Positions 6,244-10,776 of a DNA stretch of 34,496 nt are shown here, piece after piece (the stretch's first letter is position 1; each line of letters starts with the position of its first letter). This stretch comes from Lachnospiraceae bacterium (GTDB lineage Bacteria; Bacillota; Clostridia; Lachnospirales; Lachnospiraceae), in assembly GCA_029052995.1 (NCBI GenBank), contig JAIDHZ010000166.1, forward strand, positions 1 to 34,496. The letters are read 5' to 3'. Both the position numbers and the translations under genes were made by a program. Under the pieces are notes generated by a model. That model worked only from the letters and a program-made list of their open reading frames with translations. It had not been told where the DNA came from and did no database searches.

Positions 6244-6263
6244 TGTATATTCGTTTTTATATT

Positions 6264-6296
6264 AAAACAGCCGTTGACACAGCGGTTGTTTTTTAA
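6264..6296 (+). terminator. Rho-independent terminator
   Basis: 'aaaacagccgttgacacagcggttgttttttaa': stem aaacagccg/cggttgttt followed by a T run. Confidence 0.75.
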
Positions 6297-6401
6297 TATA
6301 ATTCACTTCATGTCGTTAAAGCTTTAAATGGCAAAAGTTTAAGGCACATAAACTATTATTTATCATAATCTGGTCTTAAAACTTAAAGGAGGGAGAAAAC
6401 T

Positions 6402-7937
6402 ATGGTAATTAAAATTGTGTTACTCATTGTATTTTTTGCAGTAATGGTTGGTGTTGGTATCTATTCAAGGAAAAATGCTACCAATGTCAATGATTTTGTT
6501 TTAGGAGGAAGAGGTGTTGGACCGTGGCTTACAGCTTTTGCATTTGGTACGTCTTATTTTTCTTCTGTTGTGTTTGTGGGGTATGCGGGACAGTTTGGAT
6601 GGAAATATGGTCTCGCTTCTACATGGATTGGTCTTGGAAATGCATTTATTGGAAGTCTGCTTGCCTGGCTGGTGTTAGGACGGAGAACACGTATCATGAC
6701 ACAGAGGTTAGACGCAAAGACTATGCCGGAATATTTCGGAATGCGTTTTGATTCCAAGGCACTTAGGGTTGTGAGTTCTGTTATCGCATTTGTATTTTTA
6801 GTACCTTATACAGCATCTATTTACAATGGTCTTTCAAGGCTGTTTGGTATGGCATTTAATATTAAATATGAGTTCTGTCTGATTGTTATGGCATTGCTGA
6901 CCGGTGTATATGTAATTGTGGGCGGATACATGGCTACTGCATGGAATGATTTTATCCAGGGTATTATCATGCTGTTTGGTATTTGTGCAGTTATTGCTGC
7001 AGTGTTAAACGGGCAGGGAGGCTTCTTAAATGCTGTGAAAGAACTGGCAGCAATTTCTGCTGATGATGTAGCAGTACCGTCACTTCAGGGAGGCCAGGGT
7101 CTGCTTGCAAGCTTTTTCGGACCGGATCCTTTAAATCTGCTTGGCGTTATTGTATTGACCTCCCTTGGCACATGGGGACTTCCACAGATGGTACATAAAT
7201 TCTATGCTATAAAAGATGAAAAAGCTGTTAAGACAGGAACGGTTGTTTCTACATTTTTTGCAATTATAATTTCGGGTGGATGTTATTTCTTAGGTGGTTT
7301 TGGAAGATTGTTTGACTGTGACGCAATATACAATGCGGATGGCAGTATTGCATTTGACTCCATTGTACCGCAGATGTTGTCCACATTACCAGACATCTTA
7401 ATTGGAATTGTGATTGTATTAGTACTTTCCGCTTCCATGTCAACCTTGTCTTCGCTGGTACTTACTTCAAGCTCCACGCTGACACTGGATTTTCTAAAAG
7501 AAACCTGTATAAAGAAAATGGATGATAAGACTCAGTTGATTATCATGAGGGTGCTGATTGCATTTTTTATTATTCTGTCGGTTGTACTGGCATTGAATCC
7601 ACCGACATTTATCGCCCAGCTTATGGGTATTTCGTGGGGTGCCCTGGCTGGTGCGTTCTTAGCTCCGTTTATGTATGGGCTTTATTCAAAAAAGGTGACA
7701 AAGGCTTCTGTCTGGGCAAGCTTTATTGTAGGAGTGGGTATTACAGTGCTCAATATGTTCATTAAATTTATTGCATCACCGATTAATGCAGGTGCCATTG
7801 CCATGTTGGCCGGTCTTGTAGTAGTGCCGTTGGTAAGTGCGGTTACCCCGAAGCTTAAAAAGGAGTTTGTGGATGACATTTTCACCTGCTATGATGAAAA
7901 AGTAACTGTACACAAGACCCATTCTTTGGAGGAGTAA
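6402..7937 (+). CDS. Sodium:solute symporter (SSS/SLC5 family)
   Basis: About 13 hydrophobic segments; 'VNDFVLGGRGVGPWLTAFAFGTSYFSSVVFVGYAGQFGWKYG', 'GGYMATAWNDFIQGIIMLFG', 'SASMSTLSSLVLTSSSTLTLDF' are typical of the SSS family. Confidence 0.92.
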   Translation: MVIKIVLLIVFFAVMVGVGIYSRKNATNVNDFVLGGRGVGPWLTAFAFGTSYFSSVVFVGYAGQFGWKYGLASTWIGLGNAFIGSLLAWLVLGRRTRIMTQRLDAKTMPEYFGMRFDSKALRVVSSVIAFVFLVPYTASIYNGLSRLFGMAFNIKYEFCLIVMALLTGVYVIVGGYMATAWNDFIQGIIMLFGICAVIAAVLNGQGGFLNAVKELAAISADDVAVPSLQGGQGLLASFFGPDPLNLLGVIVLTSLGTWGLPQMVHKFYAIKDEKAVKTGTVVSTFFAIIISGGCYFLGGFGRLFDCDAIYNADGSIAFDSIVPQMLSTLPDILIGIVIVLVLSASMSTLSSLVLTSSSTLTLDFLKETCIKKMDDKTQLIIMRVLIAFFIILSVVLALNPPTFIAQLMGISWGALAGAFLAPFMYGLYSKKVTKASVWASFIVGVGITVLNMFIKFIASPINAGAIAMLAGLVVVPLVSAVTPKLKKEFVDDIFTCYDEKVTVHKTHSLEE

Positions 7938-8009: not shown

Positions 8010-8675
8010 CTATAATCTGTTCAAAACACCATCAACATCTATTCCCGGGTGCGTCAAATACATACGGCAGACCCTGTCAACATCCTCTTCCATAATACCA
8101 TATTTTTTTGCAATTTTCTCTACCTGCACTCCTTTATCAATGTCTCTCATTATGAAATGAATTATTTTATTCAAATCTGCGTTATTCTTTGTTTTAAGAC
8201 TTTCCAAATGGGTGCTTTTGGCTTCTGCAATGTTTTTTTGGGTAATTTGAAATGTACCGTCATCCTTTACCTCAATAACCGCCATTGTAACCGGAAGAAA
8301 AAAACGCCCGGGACCGCAGCTTCCCGGATTCAGCCATACCTGATTTTTTCTGCTCTTCTCCTCGTATATGTGGGAATGCCCATAAATCACAATATCAGCA
8401 TTGGAAATATCTTCGTGTATTTCATCTTTATTATGAATGACAAAAAAATGAAGCCCTTGTACCTGTACATGGAGACTTTTGGGAATATCTGCTGCCCATT
8501 GTGTATCTGCATTGCCCCGAACTACATATAAGGGTGCTATTTTCTTTAATTCCTCCAACACTTTATATGTGTCAATATCACCTGCATGCAGTATCATGTC
8601 GCAGTCCGCTAATATCTGCCTGACTTCTTCCCGTAGTTTTCCATGCGTATCCGAAATAACACCAATTTTCTTCAT
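8010..8675 (-). CDS. YfcE/MJ0936-type metallophosphoesterase with C-terminal helical extension
   Basis: 'MKKIGVISDTHGKLREEVRQILADCDMILHAGDID', 'VRGNAD', 'VIYGHSH', 'NPGS'. Start at 8675 supported by 'ggaggcgaaagggcat'; track start 8723 is too far upstream. Confidence 0.88.
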   Translation of the reverse strand: MKKIGVISDTHGKLREEVRQILADCDMILHAGDIDTYKVLEELKKIAPLYVVRGNADTQWAADIPKSLHVQVQGLHFFVIHNKDEIHEDISNADIVIYGHSHIYEEKSRKNQVWLNPGSCGPGRFFLPVTMAVIEVKDDGTFQITQKNIAEAKSTHLESLKTKNNADLNKIIHFIMRDIDKGVQVEKIAKKYGIMEEDVDRVCRMYLTHPGIDVDGVLNRL

Positions 8676-8760
8676 ATGCCCTTTCGCCTCCACATGTTTT
8701 CGTCCAATGTTTAATAAACTCATTTATTATGTTATAACAAAACAAAATGGCAAAAGCAAG

Positions 8761-8878
8761 CTTTTCTATATAAAAACAGCCGTTGACACAGAGGTTAGAT
8801 GTAAAGACTATGCCGGAATATTTCGGAATGCCTTTTGATTCCAAGGCACTTAGGGTTGTGAGTTCTGTTATCGCATTT
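8761..8878 (+). repeat. Chimeric duplicated relic: copy of 6252-6282 joined to copy of 6697-6791
   Basis: 8784-8878 matches 6697-6791 at 92/95 by hand alignment. 8761-8791 matches 6252-6282 at 28/31. The junction is at the shared octamer TGACACAG (8784-8791). Confidence 0.85.
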
Positions 8879-8906
8879 TTTACATATGTTTTTTCGAATC
8901 TTTACT

Positions 8907-8934
8907 TTGATAGCGGGAAGAACTATGTTATACT
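8907..8934 (+). promoter_or_regulatory. Possible sigma-A promoter upstream of the MCP gene
   Basis: TTGATA (8907-8912), 16-nt spacer, TATACT (8929-8934). Confidence 0.4.
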
Positions 8935-9294
8935 ATAAGGATAGAAAAAGCGTATGTTGATTATGAAGGCTCGAGACCAGATAAAAGGAAAGAGATGTAG
9001 ATGAAACAATTAAAAAAAGGAATATGAGAAGAATTGTAAACCGGGTATTGTCCATAGCGTTGACAATGGATACACCGGATAATCATGTTTTGTGTGCATT
9101 TGAGGAATTGATTAAATAATATTTGTGGATATTTTCATGGAATAGTGTTACAATGTATAAGCGTTGTTAGATGAATTAGATAAAGGAATTATATAATTTG
9201 TTGAAGAAAAGCCTGAATATTAGTGAATGAATAATATAAGAAAAGATTCATGTTTACTCTTGTTAAAATAATTGAGATAAGGAGGAAATAAACA

Positions 9295-10776
9295 ATGGGT
9301 AAAAAGGAGTGCTCTGCTATTGAACGATCTAACAGGATTGCTGTGCTTTGTTTTGTGATTTTGGATTTGGTGCTTGTTTTGGCTTATTTGGCGGAGGTAT
9401 TAAAGCATGCAAGAACAATTGGCTATTATTTTGTGTTTTGCATTTTGGCGCTGGTGCCGCTATTTATATCAATAGGGATGTTTCAGAGGAACAGGGAATC
9501 TGAACTTATTAAGTACTCTATTGCAATAGGATATAGCATCTTCTACTTTTTTATTATTTTTACTACGGTTTCGCCGGCGGCATATACCTATACCATGATA
9601 CTGGGACTGCTGCTGATTAGCTATAATGACAAAAAGCTGACACTTTCCTATATGGGTGCGAGCCTTATTGCCAATGTAATCCAGATTGTGGTAATGGGTG
9701 TGCAGGGACAGATTGCAGATGGGGATGTGGCAAATGTTGAGATTCGAATTGCCTCGCTTTTACTGTTTACTATATTTATGTATTTGGAAACCCAGGGTAC
9801 AAAGCAGAATAATGATATGCAGATTAGACAGATTGAGGGGGAGAAGGAGCGCACGACGGATATGATGCAGCAGATTCTTGGAATTTCCGAGAGAATGATA
9901 GAGGATGTCCGGACTGTTTCTGAAAAAATGCATATTTTAGAGACAACGGCTGACCGAACCAAAAATTCAATGGAAGAGGTAACGATTGGTACAAATGAGA
10001 CTGTAGAATCTATTCAGATGCAGCTTCAGAAAACAGAGGATATTCAGCGTACCATTAACAGGGTAGAGCAATCTTCCGATTCTATCAGTAATGATATTTC
10101 TGATACGAAAAAAGAATTGGAGTCATCACAAATTAATATTGATAATCTGATTAAGCATGTCAATATTTCCAATCAGGCCAATGAAAATGTATCAAAAGAA
10201 CTGGGAGAGCTTTCTGAATATACAGACCAGATGCAGTCTATTATTGGATTGATCAATGGTGTTGCCGAACAGACCGGATTACTTGCTTTAAATGCCAGTA
10301 TTGAGGCAGCCAGAGCTGGTGAAGCAGGGCGGGGTTTTGCAGTAGTTGCATCGGAGATTTCCAATCTGGCAACCCAGACCCAGCAGGCAACCGTGGAGAT
10401 TACTGCATTGATTGGCAACATTTCTAATGAGCTTTCGGAGGTAGTGCAGGTTATTGAGAAAATGATAGAAAATGCCAGGGAACAGAATAAAGCAGCCAAC
10501 AGTACTGCCGACAGCTTTAAGACGATTTCCGAAAAGACACAGCAGATTCATCAGGAAGTGGGTCAGATGGTAAGCCTGGTAGCTGAACTTACAAGTGCAA
10601 ATGAGTTGATAGTGCATGGTATCGAAACAATTTCTGCGGCGACAGAAGAAGTAACAGCACACTCTAATGAGACATTGGAAAGCAGTGAGGAAAACAGTGC
10701 AATTACTAATGAAGTAGGAGGTATCATAGAGGGATTAAGCCAGCTTGCACAGGAATTACAGGCAATGAATGGGTGA
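9295..10776 (+). CDS. Methyl-accepting chemotaxis protein with multi-TM N-terminus
   Basis: Hairpin signature '[41 protein letters not shown]'; N-terminus of several consecutive hydrophobic segments without a large extracytoplasmic domain. Confidence 0.92.

Follow-up and report, generated by a model that had tools for sequence, protein, structure and literature searches.

The intergenic segment at positions 8761-8878 of the window (the whole 34,496-nt stretch of Lachnospiraceae bacterium DNA that was analysed) is 118 bp long and joins two pieces of the symporter locus next to it, and we regard it, with a probability of about 0.85, as a neutral product of a microhomology-mediated rearrangement of that locus. 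The relic itself is an ordinary scar that changes no view of the organism, and it offers a recent example, easily read from the sequence, of a junction at a hairpin apex. The analysis also yielded a more interesting by-product, a nested promoter and terminator upstream of the symporter gene.

Two donor pieces and their junction

A repeat search followed by base-by-base alignment resolved the relic into two overlapping plus-strand copies. The downstream piece (8784-8878) is a copy of 6697-6791, codons 99-130 of a plus-strand gene (6402-7937) for a 511-aa SSS sodium:solute symporter (Pfam PF00474, E 1.4e-57), and is identical to it at 92 of 95 positions. The upstream piece (8761-8791) matches 6252-6282, a part of the terminator-like hairpin that is nested with the symporter promoter, at 28 of 31 positions. 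Both pieces contain the exact 8-mer TGACACAG (8784-8791, plus strand), which is also found at 6275 and, 422 bp further on and inside the gene, at 6697. The relic, which lies about 2.1-2.5 kb downstream of its donors, keeps their order and orientation and lacks the donor interval 6283-6696 (414 bp). Two segments from distinct places are thus joined at an 8-mer present at both, as in a microhomology junction. The coordinates and counts in the initial annotation agree with this alignment.

No other repeat in the window approaches in strength the match between 6697-6791 and 8784-8878 (97% over 95 nt). The repeat search also paired 6254-6287 with 8763-8796 (91% over 34 nt). Past TGACACAG the homology picks up again after one mismatch (GGTT). 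The upstream piece shares a 19-nt exact run, AAAACAGCCGTTGACACAG, with its donor, and the 23 nt that remain when the shared 8-mer is set aside still match at 20 positions. The runner-up in the window, on either strand, has 16/23, and a score of 20 was not attained in any of 300 shuffles; the match is therefore not due to chance. TGACACAG also has two unrelated plus-strand occurrences in the window and one on the minus strand. When the rest of the symporter gene was looked for beside the relic, only 10-mers matched. A longer mosaic was considered, given that a 12-mer at 8745, left of the relic, AAATGGCAAAAG, recurs in the symporter leader (6326); this match was taken as chance because a match of 12 nt turns up in about 4% of AT-rich 60-mers taken from the loci of the relatives and because it overlaps a candidate promoter of the neighbouring phosphoesterase gene.

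A search of the organism's own genome (a 3.08-Mb draft in 409 contigs) with 8700-8960 returned the query itself, 6697-6791 and 6254-6287 only, and exact copies of the 17-mer AACAGCCGTTGACACAG are confined to 6266 and 8775. The source of both pieces is therefore unambiguous and unique in the genome. A better third donor for the whole 118 bp, which the initial annotation had named as one of the findings that would overturn its reading, was searched for in this genome and in 59 relatives and was found in none. The identity and uniqueness of the donors give good support to the proposal that the relic came from the symporter locus through a rearrangement joined at microhomology. No viral contig held an exact match to a 26-mer spanning the junction. 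A mobile element of the IS or MITE kind was rejected, there being no inverted repeats of at least 25 nt in the window and no further copies of the relic in the genome.

The fusion was not found in any of the 59 other genomes, 25 of which are congeners; their best matches begin at the position of TGACACAG and extend no further than the part derived from the gene. Of the 26 genomes of the genus, 22 yield a single strong symporter match each, and the proteins of the 21 congeners share 81-92% identity with that of the window. Over the 95-nt donor stretch, 22 other symporters from the genus and family match at 66-77 positions, and the nearest congener differs at 18 or more, as against three differences between relic and parent. 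With 92/95 identity to its own symporter and at most 77/95 to that of any congener, the relic is supported as having arisen recently in this lineage, well after the split from the nearest sampled congener. In three congeners the contig stops 112-149 nt past the symporter stop codon (G020:C24, G018:C59 and G021:C5), and a repeat may follow the gene there.

The element upstream of the symporter

The upstream donor occupies 6252-6302 on the plus strand. A consensus scan identified a symporter promoter at 6274-6302 that matches the sigma-70 consensus at 12 of 12 positions (TTGACA-17-TATAAT; -35 box at 6274-6279, -10 box at 6297-6302), and the 46 nt around it fold as a long RNA hairpin (-17.6 kcal/mol, z -7.3). 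The -35 box, and with it the TGACACAG junction, sits at the hairpin apex, and the second arm together with a T-run make up the spacer between -35 and -10. The initial annotation had called this stretch a terminator region; the hairpin agrees with that description, but the stretch also holds the symporter's own perfect promoter, so that "terminator" alone does not describe it.

We compared the symporter upstream regions of the window and of loci L047-L067 and L007. A perfect promoter stands at the same place in 20 of the 22 symporter loci, the window included, one of them with an 18-nt spacer, and no such promoter was found upstream of the symporter in the remaining two (G020 and G017). Twelve of the 20 promoter-bearing loci place the -35 box in the apex region of a hairpin with z between -4.4 and -7.6; in the remaining eight, z is close to 0. 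Among five congeners in the same register, 6 of 15 base pairs are changed on both sides, a count that none of 500 shuffles reached. Given the perfect promoter at a constant place, the hairpin folds and the doubly changed base pairs, the element is, as judged from sequence comparison, a promoter nested in a terminator-like hairpin and conserved in the genus. With its -35 box at the tip of a terminator-like hairpin, this arrangement could tie the start of symporter transcription to termination of the upstream gene, and a link of the nested element to the recycling of RNA polymerase after termination is possible (PMC6978380). Just 3' of the -10 box, at 6304-6328, lies CACTTCATGTCGTTAAAGCTTTAAA, which is conserved across the genus and occurs nowhere else in the genome within 3 mismatches; it is probably the operator of some regulator.

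Formation of the relic and competing explanations

In the mechanism that we favour, the first arm of the promoter hairpin with the -35 box (6252-6282) and, behind it, codons 99-130 of the symporter gene (6697-6791) were copied downstream in the same order and orientation and joined at TGACACAG, which lies at the hairpin apex and inside the gene. The sequence itself shows which pieces were copied, their order and orientation and where they meet; a replication or repair polymerase presumably moved from one copy of the 8-mer to the other. This could have taken place through a template switch during copying or through a later deletion of 414 bp from a duplicated segment, and we lean slightly towards the switch, since a single event could then account for all boundaries in few steps. 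Both kinds of event have published support: in the Lac system of E. coli, the junctions of amplified segments lie at 2-15 bp of microhomology (PMC2621351), and bacterial as well as archaeal polymerases have been documented to slip, promoted by hairpins, at short direct repeats (PMC4134008). According to the model published for such slippage, the polymerase pauses at the base of the hairpin, inside the first of the direct repeats (PMC4134008). The repeat studied here is at the hairpin apex and not at its base, so the classical model fits the relic only loosely, and the part of the hairpin in the rearrangement is only suggestive.

The deletion route, which is of the same nature as the favoured reading, would begin with a tandem duplication giving the order symporter, phosphoesterase, second symporter, followed by whittling that included the deletion between the TGACACAG copies. 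It has a substantial chance of being the actual path, if a somewhat less than even one. The parental order and orientation of the pieces agree with it, an 8-nt direct repeat followed by one mismatch and GGTT is a typical deletion junction, and short-direct-repeat deletions are common in bacteria (PMC2621351, PMC4134008). The route needs at least three events, though all of common kinds; moreover, no congener has a second symporter copy at E <= 1e-100, and no further gene remnant lies next to the relic.

The genes on either side of the relic bear on a different account. Between the symporter gene and the relic lies a minus-strand gene for a calcineurin-like phosphoesterase (8010-8723; Pfam PF12850, E 8.1e-33), transcribed away from the relic, and downstream of the relic lies a plus-strand gene for a methyl-accepting chemotaxis protein (9295-10776; Pfam PF00015, E 1.9e-35). 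Close homologues of the phosphoesterase exist only in two congeners (G025 and G021), at other loci, and a scan of the contigs returned distant homologues only. In one congener (G015) the symporter is directly followed, after a 302-bp gap, by the homologous chemotaxis gene, without phosphoesterase or relic. These observations would suit a joint arrival of the phosphoesterase gene and the fragment between the symporter and chemotaxis genes, with symporter homology serving as anchor on one side and illegitimate joining on the other. We consider this unlikely, though worth keeping in view: the adjacency of symporter and chemotaxis gene is seen in that one congener only, the genes of the other congeners examined being unlinked or on different contigs, and the intergenic sequences have no detectable homology, so the ancestral arrangement is not fixed.

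Two further features were observed in this neighbourhood. The C-terminal extension of the phosphoesterase (about residues 172-237) has matches in several congeners, at the C-termini of proteins that are longer and otherwise unlike it, and the intergenic stretch at 9013-9120, before the chemotaxis gene, contains very short adjoining reading frames that resemble a decayed small gene.

An assembly artefact, in which a misjoin placed reads or graph paths of the symporter locus between the genes for the phosphoesterase and the chemotaxis protein, is very improbable. The draft is fragmented and the feature is in no other genome searched; however, the relic differs from its parents by 3 substitutions in 95 and 3 in 31, whereas misjoined parental reads would be identical. 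Exact sharing with the parent extends over at most 46 bp, so that larger k-mers would not merge the copies, and both copies lie within one 34.5-kb contig.

It is slightly harder still to credit the nested element as a rearrangement hotspot, in which the hairpin, extruded or folded so that its -35 apex is exposed, would seed template switching at that apex and the relic would be one trace of a recurrent process in the genus. A self-comparison of 162 kb of the genome found no other displaced coding fragment of at least 40 bp at 85% identity, the remaining hits being intergenic repeats, and thus gave no sign of a recurrent process.

Elsewhere in the genome, a MITE-like element is present as two 83-bp intergenic copies, 89% identical and with inverted ends AGGAACTG...CAGTTCCT (L120, G000:C16, 3437-3519 and 7134-7214). 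A 45-bp direct repeat with 93% identity (L110, G000:C6, 3523-3567 and 4864-4908) lies 5' of two reading frames with secreted-looking products.

Content of the relic and known systems

The upstream piece keeps the first hairpin arm and the -35 box TTGACA. The second arm, the T-run and the -10 box are absent, and the RNA fold drops to -4.2 kcal/mol (z -0.9) from the values of the parent; the relic therefore cannot act as a symporter promoter or terminator. The downstream piece reads MTQRLDVKTMPEYFGMPFDSKALRVVSSVIAF in the symporter frame, with one silent change (D->D) and two replacements, A->V and R->P, that alter residues invariant in 22 of 22 symporters compared, and so carries nonsynonymous changes at conserved residues in the manner of a pseudogene fragment. 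The peptide (D)TEVRCKDYAGIFRNAF, previously described as common to both loci, does not belong to the symporter frame, in which the symporter reads MTQRLDAKTMPEYFGMRFDSK, and even in the quoted frame the two loci differ, with R in the parent and C in the copy. The base differences are C/T, C/T and G/C; with none of them at A, a template or variable repeat of a diversity-generating retroelement was rejected.

No Rfam family matched the relic at the gathering score, its fold is unremarkable on either strand (z +0.7 and -1.1), and promoter-like sites around it are not more numerous than expected from shuffles. The candidate phosphoesterase promoter (minus strand, 8726-8753, TTGCCA-16-CATAAT; 10/12 in the consensus scan) lies just outside the relic and is not evidence of its function. 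The three changes in the downstream piece, though few, point to lost constraint and not to maintenance. The initial annotation had proposed that the fragment is fairly recent or maintained; the first half of that proposal agrees with the comparison among congeners, and the second half is not supported, since two of three substitutions hit positions at which none of the 22 symporters varies, neither the promoter nor the terminator is left intact and no RNA family matches. Without an intact promoter, terminator or reading frame, we infer that the relic does nothing.

An RNA acting on the symporter mRNA, as an antisense if the minus strand were read or as a decoy if the plus strand were, could pair almost perfectly through its 97% identity over 95 nt, but the shuffle-level count of promoter-like sites, the unremarkable folds, the lack of an Rfam match and the occurrence of the fusion in 0 of 25 congeners leave such a role scarcely believable. 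Reverse transcriptase switching at hairpin-associated direct repeats is known behaviour, but an origin in which a symporter transcript was reverse-transcribed, with a template switch, and the cDNA then inserted is the least credible reading of all, because the start predicted for the symporter transcript (promoter 6274-6302) is 3' of the upstream piece, so that normal symporter mRNA would lack it and only read-through from the upstream gene would contain it.

The neutral rearrangement that we favour can be set beside three known systems. Short decaying coding pieces with an intact source gene nearby are familiar as bacterial intergenic gene fragments, or truncated pseudogenes; the relic is like them, but it is chimeric, combining a promoter piece with an internal gene piece. 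With hairpin-promoted slipped-mispairing deletion (PMC4134008) it shares the association of a direct repeat and a strong inverted repeat, and the loss of the intervening sequence. The arrangement differs, since one copy of the repeat is at the hairpin apex and does not flank the base, and the second copy is 422 bp away in the gene. With template switching, as in FoSTeS/MMBIR and the E. coli Lac amplification junctions, it has in common a discontinuous copy of nearby sequence in the same orientation with a short shared junction, and its 8 nt fall inside the 2-15 bp of the E. coli junctions (PMC2621351). In contrast to those systems, the relic is only about 118 bp long, involves no amplification and has outer junctions without clear microhomology, and the event is known from its sequence alone.
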